NCBI RefSeq assembly: GCF_017304615.1
Contig: NZ_JAFKLZ010000001.1
Coordinates: 1 to 64,000, forward strand
Length of the DNA stretch: 64,000 nt
Source of the DNA: Sphingomonas sp.
GTDB taxonomy: Bacteria; Pseudomonadota; Alphaproteobacteria; Sphingomonadales; Sphingomonadaceae
Direction: 5' to 3'
The position numbers were made by a program, and so were the translations under genes. The notes below the pieces were generated by a model that saw nothing but the letters and a program-made list of their open reading frames with translations, was not told where the DNA came from and searched no databases. Positions 5,011 to 8,863 of the stretch are shown piece by piece; the first letter of the stretch is position 1; each line of letters starts with the position of its first letter.

Positions 5011-5520
5011 ATGAACGGTCAGATCGTCCAGCCGACGGGAATCGTCCAGTACCTGATCCCGATCGCGGTGTTCTTGGTGATCTTCGCGTTTCGCGCGCGG
5101 AGCCTGTCGAGACTGCGCCCGCTCAAGCTCGAACGGCTGTGGATCGTGCCGGCGATCTACCTTGCCATCGTTGTCGCCAATTTCGTCGCGAAGCCGCCGA
5201 CTCTGGCGGCCTGGATCGCGTCCGTCATCGCACTGTTGGTCGGCGCGGCACTCGGCTGGCAGCGCGGACGGATGATGCAAATCCATGTCGATCCAGAAAC
5301 ACATGCGCTCAACCAGAAGGGCTCGCCTTGGGCCATCCTCTTCCTGATGGCAATCGTGCTGGTGAAGATGGCGGCGCAGGGCGAAGGGCGCGCGCTGGGT
5401 TTCGACGTGACGCTGGTGACCGACGCCGCCCTGGCGTTCGCGCTGGGTATGTTCACGATGACGCGGGTCGAAATGTACCTGCGCGCCGGGCGGCTTCTGG
5501 AAGCTGCCCGCCTTAGTTAG
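5011..5520 (+). CDS. Small membrane protein resembling the DUF1453/CcdC family
   Basis: The product is 169 residues with about four hydrophobic segments, near residues 13-27, 43-58, 65-82 and 107-119, and a further one near 131-147. The stretch IHVDPETHALNQKGSP between helices, with a following segment ending TMTRVEMYLRAGRLL, is what I associate with DUF1453 (CcdC-like) proteins. That assignment is from memory of the family pattern and is moderate. GGGGG six bases before the ATG is a good ribosome binding site. It follows the gcv operon by 79 bases on the same strand but has no obvious link to glycine metabolism. Function unknown. Confidence 0.7.
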   Translation: MNGQIVQPTGIVQYLIPIAVFLVIFAFRARSLSRLRPLKLERLWIVPAIYLAIVVANFVAKPPTLAAWIASVIALLVGAALGWQRGRMMQIHVDPETHALNQKGSPWAILFLMAIVLVKMAAQGEGRALGFDVTLVTDAALAFALGMFTMTRVEMYLRAGRLLEAARLS

Positions 5521-5736
5521 GTCGCGACGATTGACGAGCGAGAGTTAAAGTTACCACCAGCCAACGGCATACTTTGATCGTGACGCTCAATTTCTGGCTC
5601 ATATCCGGCCCTTTATCCTAACTGGCGACCGCTACGATCGACAGACCATCAGGCTTACGCCTCGGGGAGAAAAATCCAGAGAAGAGAACCATCCGATCAG
5701 GATCCAAACTGATCGAGAACGGATGATTTTTGTAGT
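5521..5736. other. Gene-free AT-richer stretch before the cas5-like gene
   Basis: No frame on either strand gives a credible protein, and I see no remnant of cas3, cas7 or cas8 and no repeat-spacer structure. Composition changes here: hand counts give 31 G+C in 5521-5580 and only 22 in 5701-5760, against 40 in a comparable 60-base block inside gcvPB. Together with the following gene this marks an acquired or decayed island. The SOS-type box is at its right end. Confidence 0.6.
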
Positions 5737-5751
5737 GAACATACAACGAAC
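5737..5751 (+). promoter_or_regulatory. Candidate LexA (SOS) box GAAC-N7-GAAC
   Basis: GAAC at 5737-5740 and GAAC at 5748-5751 are separated by seven bases (ATACAAC). This matches the direct-repeat LexA operator known from Alphaproteobacteria (GTTC-N7-GTTC on the other strand). It lies 18 bases before the ATG of the cas5-like gene in an AT-rich promoter-like stretch. Eight fixed bases would occur about twice by chance across both strands of a window this size, so position and context, not the motif alone, carry the weight. Confidence 0.55.
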
Positions 5752-5769
5752 ATAAGCAATGGTCGCGCT

Positions 5770-6336
5770 ATGTTCCGTTTTCACGTTTGGGGAGATCGAG
5801 CGTGCTTTGCGCGACCCGAGTTTCGGCGGGATAGGATTTCTTACGACATCATCACCCCTTTAGCCGCCCGTGGAATTCTGGAATCAATCTACTGGTCGCC
5901 GGCGATCAGGTGGCACGTCGATAGAATCCACGTGCTTCAGCCCATCATCTTTGACTGGTTGGGCTCTGAACCATGCCGACAGTGCGATCTGATCGATGTT
6001 GCGTATGTTATCGAAGCGCATTTCGACCTTAGCGACCGCGCGACACAGACAGATCATGTCGCCCAACACGCATCGCTCGTTCGCCGACGTGCGAGGCGTC
6101 AGGAGCCTTATCGCCAGCCATTTCTTGGCACCGGCGCCTATCCCGCACACTTTCGTTCGCTTGAAGCTGGCGATGATCTGCCGCCATCAAGCTTTGCCAA
6201 CGAATCGGTCTATCTAGGCTGGACAATCCACGATCTGGATACGGAGCGCCCGCCGCAATTGCGCTTCTTTCGACCGGTCATTCGCCGGGGGATAGTCGAG
6301 CTTGCCAATTTATCGGCAACAGATCTTCCCGCCTAG
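5770..6336 (+). CDS. Solitary Cas5d-like protein (type I-C CRISPR Cas5 family), internally shortened
   Basis: The 188-residue product reads as a Cas5c/Cas5d protein. Matching blocks are RFHVWGDRACFARPE (residues 3-17), SYDIITPLAARGILESIYW (24-42), PAIRWHVDRIHVLQPI (44-59), DVAYVIEAHFDL (76-87) and RRRARRQEPYRQPFLG (105-120). Type I-C Cas5 normally binds crRNA in Cascade and, lacking Cas6, cuts pre-crRNA using a Tyr plus a Lys-His pair. Tyr41 is kept. At the Lys-His position this protein has Gln99-His100. The family's segment between PIxF and the DVxYVIEAHF block, some 40-50 residues, is mostly absent here. The frame is otherwise open. No cas3, cas7, cas8, cas4, cas1, cas2 or array flanks it. 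G+C is roughly 52-58% in blocks counted by hand, below its neighbours. The ribosome binding site is weak. It could be a decaying remnant or a repurposed RNA-binding protein. Confidence 0.82.
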   Translation: MFRFHVWGDRACFARPEFRRDRISYDIITPLAARGILESIYWSPAIRWHVDRIHVLQPIIFDWLGSEPCRQCDLIDVAYVIEAHFDLSDRATQTDHVAQHASLVRRRARRQEPYRQPFLGTGAYPAHFRSLEAGDDLPPSSFANESVYLGWTIHDLDTERPPQLRFFRPVIRRGIVELANLSATDLPA

Positions 6337-6339
6337 GCC

Positions 6340-7260
6340 TCAGTCCGCGATCGCTTCCTGCACCTGAGGGTGTGGCGCGACGCGGCGTTCGCGCCACACG
6401 ATGTAAAGTCCGCTCGCGATGATCACCGGCGCGCCAACCCATGTCCACGGCGTCGGCAGCATGTCGAACAGGAGCCAGCCGTAGAGCGTCGCCCAGATCA
6501 GGCTCGAATAGTCCATCGGCATCACGGCGGAAACCGGCGCGTAGCGGAGTGCGGCGGTGAAGGCGATCTGGCCCAGCCCGCCGAACAGCCCCATCGCCGC
6601 CAGGATCGCGAACGTGGTGAGGTCATGGCTTTGCGCGAAGAACGGGTAGAGCAGACCGAGCGGGACCATCGACAGCGTCGAGAACCAGAACACCGTCGTC
6701 ACCGGGCGGTCGACCTTGCCGATCTGGCGGAGCTGGATCGCGACGATGGCGACGAAGACGGACGAGGTCAGCCCGACCGCAACACCGGCCAGCGGGAAAT
6801 GGCCGCTACCCGGCTGGGTCACGATCAGCACGCCGATAAAGCCCACGACCACCGCGCCCCAGCGATGCCAGCCGGTCGGTTCCTTCAGCACCAGCGCGCC
6901 GAGGATCGTGGCGAAGATCGGCACCGTGAAAGCGAGCGTCGTCGCTTCGGCGAGCGGCAACAGCAAGACCGCGCCGAAATTGAACGCCATCCCCGTCACG
7001 CCGATCGCGGCGCGGACAACCTGCCCGCGAAACGCGTTCGAGCGGATCGCGCCGATACTGCGGTCGGTGATCGCCATATAGGCCAGCACCACCGGGATCG
7101 CCGCGCCCTGCCGCCAGAACATGATCTCGACGAGGCCGGCGCCGCGCGTCTCGGCAAGCTTGATCAGCGCCGACAGCGTCGCCAGCAACAGCACCGCGAG
7201 CAGACGCATCGCGATGCCGAGCATGACCCTGTCGTCCGCGTCCCCCATGGCTGTCGCCAT
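6340..7260 (-). CDS. DMT superfamily transporter (EamA domains)
   Basis: This is an inner-membrane transporter of the drug/metabolite type with about ten hydrophobic helices and two EamA repeats. Typical features are an early LLLATLSALIKLAE helix, the LPLAEATTLAFTVPIFATIL block closing repeat one, and AALRYAPVSAVMPMDYSSLIWA in repeat two. About 306 residues from the ATG I chose at 7260. ATG 7248 and 7224 are in frame alternatives. A still longer frame to 7353 would overlap proS and is unlikely. It is divergent from proS and convergent on the cas5-like gene, whose stop is 3 bases away. Substrate unknown. Confidence 0.85.
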   Translation of the reverse strand: MATAMGDADDRVMLGIAMRLLAVLLLATLSALIKLAETRGAGLVEIMFWRQGAAIPVVLAYMAITDRSIGAIRSNAFRGQVVRAAIGVTGMAFNFGAVLLLPLAEATTLAFTVPIFATILGALVLKEPTGWHRWGAVVVGFIGVLIVTQPGSGHFPLAGVAVGLTSSVFVAIVAIQLRQIGKVDRPVTTVFWFSTLSMVPLGLLYPFFAQSHDLTTFAILAAMGLFGGLGQIAFTAALRYAPVSAVMPMDYSSLIWATLYGWLLFDMLPTPWTWVGAPVIIASGLYIVWRERRVAPHPQVQEAIAD

Positions 7261-7327
7261 GCGCCCCGGCGCGCGCTGCGACAAGTCCGGGGTGACGAAG
7301 CGGTTTTGGCGGACTAAGCGCACCTGC

Positions 7328-8863
7328 ATGATCAAGCACGCTTTATCCGTCACGCGCGCCGACGACTTCGCGCAATGGTATCAGACCGTGATCGCGGAGG
7401 CCGACATGGCCGAGGAATCCGGGGTGCGCGGGTGCATGGTGATCCGGCCATGGGGCTATGGCATCTGGGAGCGGATGCAGCGCCTGCTCGACGACAAGAT
7501 CAAGGCGACGGGGCACGAGAATTGCTATTTCCCGCTGTTCATCCCGCTCTCCTATTTCGAGAAGGAGGCTGAGCACGTCGAGGGCTTCGCCAAGGAAATG
7601 GCGGTCGTCACGCACCACCGCCTGATCCCCGATGGCAAGGGCAAGCTGATCCCCGATCCCGCCGCCAGGCTGGAGGAACCGTTGGTCGTCCGCCCGACGA
7701 GCGAGACGGTGATCGGCACCGCTTTCTCGCGCTGGGTGCAGTCGTGGCGCGACTTGCCCGTGTTGATCAACCAATGGGCGAACGTCGTGCGCTGGGAAAT
7801 GCGCACGCGGATGTTCCTGCGCACGGCGGAGTTCCTGTGGCAGGAAGGGCATACAGCGCACGCTTCGGAGGCCGAGGCGCGCGAGGAAACGCTCAAGATG
7901 CTCGAGGTGTATCGCTCGTTCGCCGAGGATTGCGTCGCGCTGCCCGTGGTGGCGGGCGAGAAGCCCGAGAACGAGCGTTTCCCCGGTGCGGTGGAGACTT
8001 GGTCGATCGAGGCGATGATGCAGGACGGCAAGGCGCTCCAGGCGGGCACCTCGCACTTCCTCGGCACCAATTTCGCGCACGCTCAGGACATCAAGTTCCA
8101 GAATGCGTCGGGCGAACTCGAATTCGCCAACACGACCAGCTGGGGCGTGTCGACGCGGATGATCGGCGGGCTGATCATGGTGCATGGCGACGACGACGGC
8201 CTGCGCGTTCCGCCGCGCATCGCACCGTGGCAGGTCGTGATCGTGCCGATGCTGCGCGACAATGACGAGGACGCGGCGTTGATCGATTACTGCAAGGGGC
8301 TGCAGGGCGAGCTCGCGGCGCTGTCGGCGTGCGGCGAGCCGGTGCGTGCTTTGCTCGATCTCAAGCCGGTCAAGTCGACCAACAAGCGCTGGGCTTGGGT
8401 CAAGAAGGGCGCACCGATTGTGATTGAGGTCGGCGGGCGCGACATGGCAGGCGGCAATGTCAGCGTGATCCGCCGCGATCGACTGTATCGCGAGGACGGC
8501 AAGCTCGACAGCGCGGCGGTCGCGAAGGGCGATTTCGTCGGCGGTGCGGCGGCGATGTTGGAGGAGATTCAGGCCGGCTTGTTCGCCGACGCCAAGGCGC
8601 GGCTCGACGGCAGCATCGCGCGCGACGTCACCGACATAGCGGGGCTGCAGGCGTTCTTCGCCGAGGGCGTGAAGAACCCCGGCTGGGTCGAGGCGGGCTG
8701 GTCGAAGCCGACCGGCGCCGCGCTCGACAAGGTGGTCGAAACGCTCAAGTCGATGAAGTTGACGCTGCGCAATGTGCCGCAGGGCGCGGCGCCCGCGACC
8801 GGCGCGTGCATTTTCACCGGCGAGCCCGCGGTCGAGCGTGTCCTGATCGCGCGGGCATATTGA
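7328..8863 (+). CDS. proS: Prolyl-tRNA synthetase, archaeal/eukaryotic type
   Basis: The enzyme charges tRNA-Pro with proline. The 511-residue product belongs to the short ProRS type (archaeal/eukaryotic-like) without the inserted editing domain between class II motifs 2 and 3. Recognisable parts are GVRGCMVIRPWGYGIWERMQ near the start, VVRPTSETVIG, the motif 2 region RWEMRTRMFLRTAEFLWQEG, motif 3 around STRMIGGLIMVHGDDDG, and the characteristic final tyrosine (RVLIARAY). The ATG at 7328 gives the expected N-terminus; the upstream in-frame extension lies in the divergent transporter gene. The thioesterase gene follows one base after its stop. Confidence 0.94.
   Translation: MIKHALSVTRADDFAQWYQTVIAEADMAEESGVRGCMVIRPWGYGIWERMQRLLDDKIKATGHENCYFPLFIPLSYFEKEAEHVEGFAKEMAVVTHHRLIPDGKGKLIPDPAARLEEPLVVRPTSETVIGTAFSRWVQSWRDLPVLINQWANVVRWEMRTRMFLRTAEFLWQEGHTAHASEAEAREETLKMLEVYRSFAEDCVALPVVAGEKPENERFPGAVETWSIEAMMQDGKALQAGTSHFLGTNFAHAQDIKFQNASGELEFANTTSWGVSTRMIGGLIMVHGDDDGLRVPPRIAPWQVVIVPMLRDNDEDAALIDYCKGLQGELAALSACGEPVRALLDLKPVKSTNKRWAWVKKGAPIVIEVGGRDMAGGNVSVIRRDRLYREDGKLDSAAVAKGDFVGGAAAMLEEIQAGLFADAKARLDGSIARDVTDIAGLQAFFAEGVKNPGWVEAGWSKPTGAALDKVVETLKSMKLTLRNVPQGAAPATGACIFTGEPAVERVLIARAY

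Follow-up and report, generated by a model that had tools for sequence, protein, structure and literature searches.

The window (the whole 64-kb stretch of Sphingomonas DNA analysed here) contains a gene, referred to below as solo cas5 (5770..6336, + strand), that encodes a 188 aa Cas5c-like protein which lacks a Lys-His pair and is shortened after residue 60. With modest confidence, we regard it as an exapted, non-cutting, SOS-induced Cas5 that has a role separate from CRISPR and probably acts by binding nucleic acid. Its ancestor would have been a type I-C Cas5 of the sphingomonad type that left CRISPR (once, judging by the tree, in the lineage leading to the Sphingomonas copies), lost the presumed pre-crRNA-cutting residue together with the greater part of the segment that follows residue 60, and gained LexA control, so becoming a stand-alone DNA-damage-response gene. 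LexA would repress solo cas5 until RecA-driven LexA cleavage frees it, and the small Cas5-fold protein would then bind RNA or DNA via its Cas5 core, without cutting. Such binding would need no Cas7, Cas8 or guide array.

If this is correct, solo cas5 would plainly illustrate how selection can maintain a cas gene beyond CRISPR, within the SOS regulon, and the clade, the conserved sites and the promoter box make a role for Cas5 without Cascade directly testable. The family models call the solo proteins type I-C Cas5c, and such proteins may hence be overlooked by being taken for CRISPR remnants. Literature on solitary or orphan cas5, on Sphingomonas I-C cas5 and on co-option of cas genes, a body of sources that takes in few subscription papers or preprints, does not describe the family, and neither do the matches listed for Cas5 with anti-CRISPR and for orphan cas genes. 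The accessible parts of the literature on cas5 with LexA or SOS include no LexA-controlled cas5.

Identity and fold of the solo Cas5

The open reading frame at 5770–6336 starts with ATG and is uninterrupted over 188 aa. Its product matches PF09704 (Pfam; E 1.4e-20, 74.7 bits against a curated cut-off of 23) and TIGR01876 cas_Cas5d (NCBIfam; 102.4 bits against a curated cut-off of 85), PADLOC likewise assigns it to Cas5c/Cas5d, and phmmer matches it to the PDB Cas5c chains 7kha and 8dex at E ~1e-46. When the AlphaFold (AF2) model of the protein (pLDDT 94.1, pTM 0.90) was compared with the PDB using Foldseek, the top matches were Cas5c structures (TMq 0.82–0.89, probability 1.00), and a second, distant solo member also models as Cas5 (AF2 and Foldseek). 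TIGR01876 is matched at E 0.001 or better by 19/19 solo proteins. The product is a true Cas5c/Cas5d by both profile and fold, and the preliminary description, which had recognized a type I-C Cas5 in an intact frame of 188 codons, was correct on both points.

Absence of type I-C partners

The window's 3.34-Mb genome contains no second Cas5 and no Cas8c, Cas1 or Cas7 of PF05107 and, hence, no I-C operon of the form cas3-cas5-cas8c-cas7(-cas1-cas2). The repeat taken from sphingomonad I-C loci, which was used as the pattern for the genome scan, is absent at <=3 mismatches, and the genome thus holds no CRISPR array with this I-C repeat. A repeat search around the gene found no array near solo cas5, and Rfam gave nothing beside it. 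For Cas5, Cas8c, Cas1, Cas7 of PF05107 and the I-C repeat, the earlier remark that no other cas gene or array lies nearby thus applies to the whole genome, and an intact type I-C locus elsewhere from which the gene could recently have been duplicated, a source that had been allowed for, was rejected as there is no further Cas5, Cas8c, Cas1, Cas7 or I-C repeat.

The same holds for Cas7 (PF05107) in the other carriers, as it was found in 0/30 solo-carrying genomes (29 of the genus plus G556; four hold only interrupted copies or a fragment). Cas1 is absent from 26/30 of them and present in G014, G063, G073 and G241. As a positive control, identical searches recovered Cas7 and Cas1 in 5/6 I-C genomes.

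Distribution and phylogeny

Cas5-like matches were found in 35/295 Sphingomonas genomes. Six of these 35 carry I-C loci (G005, G023, G116, G154, G179 and G200, with G154 lacking Cas1 and Cas7), and the remaining 29 genomes carry 34 solo loci, namely 28 intact copies spread over 25 genomes, five interrupted copies (L077, L099, L100, L101 and L102) and one fragment (L105). The patchy distribution of solo cas5 (any copy, broken ones included, in 29/295 genus genomes), the interruption of 5/33 loci and the one fragment indicate that the gene is dispensable. A solo and an I-C Cas5 were not found together in any genus genome, which is uninformative because only ~0.6 would be expected by chance. A scan of named genomes with the motif ACF[PRA]RPEF, which was derived from these same solo copies, returned 18 loci, all in Sphingomonas. 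Wider samples gave matches in 11/298 genomes of the family and 15/385 genomes of the class.

A maximum-likelihood tree was built from 53 proteins after the columns of the shortened segment and of the Lys-His pair had been removed; its bootstrap is not wholly settled and it includes several long branches. All 28 solo proteins from Sphingomonas group together in a single clade (99/98), nested in a group (95/95) that also holds 12 I-C Cas5, of which 11 come from the same family and the twelfth from a different one. Within the solo clade, the window protein sits on the first branch (94/76), and the intact copies from the priA/atp site form, with L096, a branch of their own (96/89). The short protein of G556, which has kept the Lys-His pair, is placed elsewhere on the tree (89/80) and is perhaps a second departure from CRISPR. 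G556 belongs to another genus of the family and has two short Cas5 copies (L103 and L104), one intact with Lys-His, the other interrupted with a LexA-type box.

Catalytic residues and the shortened segment

The catalytic triad proposed for Cas5d is Tyr46/Lys116/His117 (PMC3652601). At these columns of the 53-row alignment, the window protein has Tyr41, Gln99 (the Lys116 position) and His100, which confirms the Gln99-His100 reading of the preliminary description and leaves the protein without the complete triad, as Gln99 replaces the Lys. That the nuclease Tyr is kept, as was also noted, is true of the residue but tells little, because the 24 I-C proteins have His (21/24) or Leu (3/24) in the Tyr41 column, and the I-C proteins of this branch are already unlike B. 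halodurans at that position. The Lys is kept in 24/24 I-C proteins, where it is followed by His in 21 and by Tyr in three. The Lys-His pair is found in 0/28 intact solo proteins; the row for L092 has a Lys at the catalytic column next to a gap, and the alignment is unsure there. Given the loss of the Lys, solo Cas5 probably no longer cuts.

The phmmer alignment is broken at window residues 63–74, where D. vulgaris 7kha spans 65 to 108. In the 53-row alignment, the segment between window residues 60 and 74 amounts to 14 residues in the window protein, compared with 45–46 in 21/24 I-C proteins (45 once) and 34–36 in the other three. The window protein is ~32 residues short relative to I-C Cas5 and does not have the full-length segment, in agreement with the earlier statement that most of the stretch equivalent to residues 62–75 is gone. 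Neither change is confined to the window, as all of the 28 intact solo relatives lack Lys-His and have shortened segments. Their segments are 13 to 34 residues long, all below the 46 of sphingomonad I-C; hence, the shortening is general, though its size is not uniform. Of the eight matched genomes that belong to the family but not to the genus, seven encode the 46-residue segment, G556 being the one with a short form, and 12/14 genomes of the class-wide sample other than the window's were aligned (G638 and G930 were left out), all having 34–46 residues. The lost segment may be the one that forms the Cas5c thumb. A thumb in Cas5c is mentioned in PMC7684278.

A LexA-type box upstream of solo cas5

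A putative LexA (SOS) box, GAACATACAACGAAC, lies in the promoter region at 5737..5751 (+ strand), positions -33 to -19 relative to the ATG, and is new relative to the preliminary description. The alphaproteobacterial LexA motif is given as GAAC-N7-GAAC, or GTTC-N7-GTTC on the reverse strand, in PMC9578287 and PMC3323433. Within the 64-kb window, this motif is unremarkable (4 matches, 1.87 expected, i.e. not rarer than chance), and the case therefore rests on comparison. An exact GAAC-N7-GAAC was found <=60 nt upstream in 19/35 solo loci (33 of the genus and two in G556, with L105 omitted), where 0.06 are expected per 35 shuffled windows. As the motif was picked after seeing the window, the window can be set aside, leaving 18/34. 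Among other genes of the same stretches the exact box precedes 0/122, though these controls include operon-internal genes, and it precedes 1/5 I-C cas5 genes. Allowing one mismatch, the box is present at 25/35 solo loci compared with 2/122 controls, and 10/35 solo loci have no box even at this setting. At L088, L095 and L097, GAAC units recur with an 11-bp period as far as the start codon.

In the whole genome, GAACA-N6-GAAC occurs at 30 sites compared with 7 for the reversed control. All 30 sites were checked by eye and ten chosen genes were profile-scanned. The box precedes two imuA-like genes, an imuB-like gene, dnaE2, uvrA and a TIGR03916 repair radical-SAM gene, and the ten also include an RNA 2',3'-cyclic phosphodiesterase-like gene, EgtB and two genes without a match; the scores for imuA, imuB, the phosphodiesterase and the cut-off dnaE2 and uvrA frames are under the curated cut-offs. 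Many others of the 30 sites look like chance. The distribution of the box suggests that LexA binds and represses solo cas5. The boxes of the RNA 2',3'-cyclic phosphodiesterase-like gene, in L139 (1498–2076), and of the EgtB gene, in L134, lie directly upstream of these genes.

A TCC-N5-GGA palindrome, TCCGATCAGGA, at 5692..5702 is a possible second operator. It was found at 20/35 solo loci, 2/5 I-C cas5 genes and 9/122 controls, and in front of solo cas5 and certain I-C cas5 genes it is sometimes paired, with a spacing of ~21–23 bp.

Selection and conserved residues

The preliminary description offered two readings, a fragment in decay or a Cas5 fold retained for some other function. Among solo pairs for which dN/dS (Nei–Gojobori) could be estimated, the five closest have values of 0.07, 0.12, 0.21, 0.24 and 0.27, three of the pairs sharing members; a sixth pair was saturated in dS, and the I-C pairs listed gave 0.12–0.39. 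By these estimates, close solo pairs are under purifying selection. Nineteen of the residues that are invariant in 21 I-C proteins remain at least 85 % conserved across the 28 solo proteins. Many other I-C-invariant residues are lost from the solo proteins, including some in the MK.ER, RRNEV and QQRA stretches, and binding of a handle in the style of Cascade is therefore doubtful. We infer that the solo protein binds nucleic acid.

The second of the two readings is supported, because the copies fall in one clade, have lost the Lys-His pair, have shortened segments and show dN/dS of 0.07–0.27 in close pairs. The first, in which solo cas5 would be a functionless, decaying remnant of lost type I-C systems, fits the patchy distribution, the interrupted L077, L099, L100, L101 and L102 and the fragment L105, but we consider it highly improbable in view of the 28 intact copies in a single clade, the dN/dS values far under 1, the common promoter element and the conserved core residues.

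Chromosomal positions

To the left of solo cas5 lies a gene for a small protein (5011..5520, + strand) with a weak DUF6622 likeness below the curated cut-off, which we place outside the system. An EamA-type transporter gene (6340..7353, - strand) lies to the right and is followed by proS (prolyl-tRNA synthetase; 7328..8863, + strand), the landmark of a conserved site. Elsewhere in the window, a tandem glycine riboswitch (two RF00504 aptamers) is found at 129–330, upstream of glycine cleavage genes. The G+C content drops to 0.52 at 5501–6000, the surroundings being at ~0.65. Relative to the near relative G146, whose proS is 95 % identical to the window's and which has no solo cas5 at this site, the window contains an insertion at ~5511..6386 (876 bp here, 46 bp in G146, a difference of 0.83 kb), for which no target-site duplication was seen by eye. 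Insertion and synteny were compared at 11 of 30 proS loci.

The 33 genus loci fall into several settings (neighbours other than EamA, proS and the profile-scanned genes were recognized by eye). Seventeen are at the EamA end and/or directly before proS, eight are beside priA and/or atp genes, three lie elsewhere, flanked by EamA and an epimerase gene, and four are in other settings (L075, L079, L094 and L096). The window copy alone is on the other side of that EamA gene, most relatives with a solo cas5 at the proS site having it on the opposite side. In two of the other settings (L075 and L094), solo cas5 lies behind a RadC-domain gene. At L075, in a stretch reaching from 0.7 kb upstream of cas5 to 6.2 kb downstream of it, the RadC gene is directly before cas5, and further on comes a type II CBASS operon encoding a Cap15-type effector, JAB, E1-E2 and a DncV-like cyclase. 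At L094 the order is a second RadC gene, a 123-aa open reading frame without a Pfam match, and solo cas5.

At the proS site, cas5 identity tracks proS identity (r = 0.67 over 105 pairs from 15 loci, the window included), which is what a long-resident, fast-evolving cas5 should show. The data do not support the window copy having been inherited vertically at the usual position on the proS side, because it lies across EamA from the copy in G028 and is only 35 % identical to it, though the proS genes are 91 % identical. Hence, the acquisition that had been proposed stands for the window copy, an insertion missing in G146, but not for the proS-site copies, which look long resident. A functional tie to the EamA transporter was also considered and rejected; solo cas5 occurs at proS without EamA and at EamA without proS, and synteny is therefore the simpler reading.

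The RadC-linked copies, one of them near CBASS, count against an exapted SOS-response protein, as they would fit a defence or mobile-island gene equally. An SOS-induced defence or toxin-like effector, which would harm or arrest the cell or block phage by binding an essential RNA, could account for the SOS box, for the quick divergence and frequent loss of the gene and for the copy behind a RadC gene near the type II CBASS operon. We judge it improbable, since no possible antitoxin partner is common to the sites and the copies are mostly single genes amid housekeeping genes.

Plasmids, phages and possible interference with foreign Cascade

An origin of solo cas5 in phages or plasmids is not backed by the plasmid, phage and viral-contig searches. 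Among the 40 plasmid matches listed of 50 records, 33 are annotated as Cas5 type I-C and seven are without a named gene; genes annotated as I-C cas5 are found, among the matches listed, on plasmids of other alphaproteobacteria. Phage records gave one weak match, to an unannotated record (34.8 % identity), two pattern-based scans of viral contigs found no relatives, and the single hit from a Foldseek comparison with viral structures was weak (E 3.5e-4, TMq 0.47).

The main rival to the reading favoured here, with a toxin-like or defence role and decay ranked lower, is that solo Cas5 is a decoy, made on DNA damage or DNA entry, that replaces Cas5 in an incoming I-C Cascade and spoils the complex. 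By analogy there is a precedent in AcrIB3 of Listeria, a Cas5 homologue or mimic without an 18-residue hook that displaces the native Cas5 from I-B Cascade, as reported in the review PMC13131331. The solo proteins also retain the Cas5c fold while being short of one segment, annotated I-C cas5 genes are carried by plasmids of other alphaproteobacteria, and SOS control would suit a response to DNA entry or self-targeting. However, Cas7 of PF05107 is found in 0/30 solo genomes, two pattern-based scans of viral contigs gave no relatives and phages one weak match, most copies are at core chromosomal sites, and identity between the window protein and sphingomonad I-C Cas5 is no more than ~45 %. On this evidence a decoy role is possible but unlikely, and it is a little more doubtful still that a LexA-released, cut-dead, shortened Cas5 would specifically disarm plasmid-borne I-C Cascade. 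If true, hosts without I-C would possess a chromosomal guard against foreign CRISPR, timed by SOS.

Comparison with known systems

The solo protein is closest to the Cas5 of type I-C systems (D. vulgaris 7kha/8dej, B. halodurans 4f3m), with which it shares the fold (TMq 0.82–0.89), the family profiles and the core residues A11, RPE15-17, YD25-26, P30, G120 and G150. It differs from them in standing apart from other cas genes, in the lack of Cas7 from its genome, in the replacement of Lys116, in a segment of 14 rather than 46 residues and in the addition of a LexA box.

AcrIB3 is carried on mobile elements of hosts having I-B. Like solo Cas5, it is a Cas5 homologue without one segment (PMC13131331 for AcrIB3). 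AcrIB3 is type I-B-like, whereas solo Cas5 is I-C-derived, preceded by an SOS box and located mostly at core chromosomal sites, in hosts without I-C.

With the LexA regulon of alphaproteobacteria (imuA-imuB-dnaE2, uvrA), solo cas5 has in common a GAAC-N7-GAAC near the start codon, and it is, by eye, the sole cas gene among the 30 box sites of the genome.
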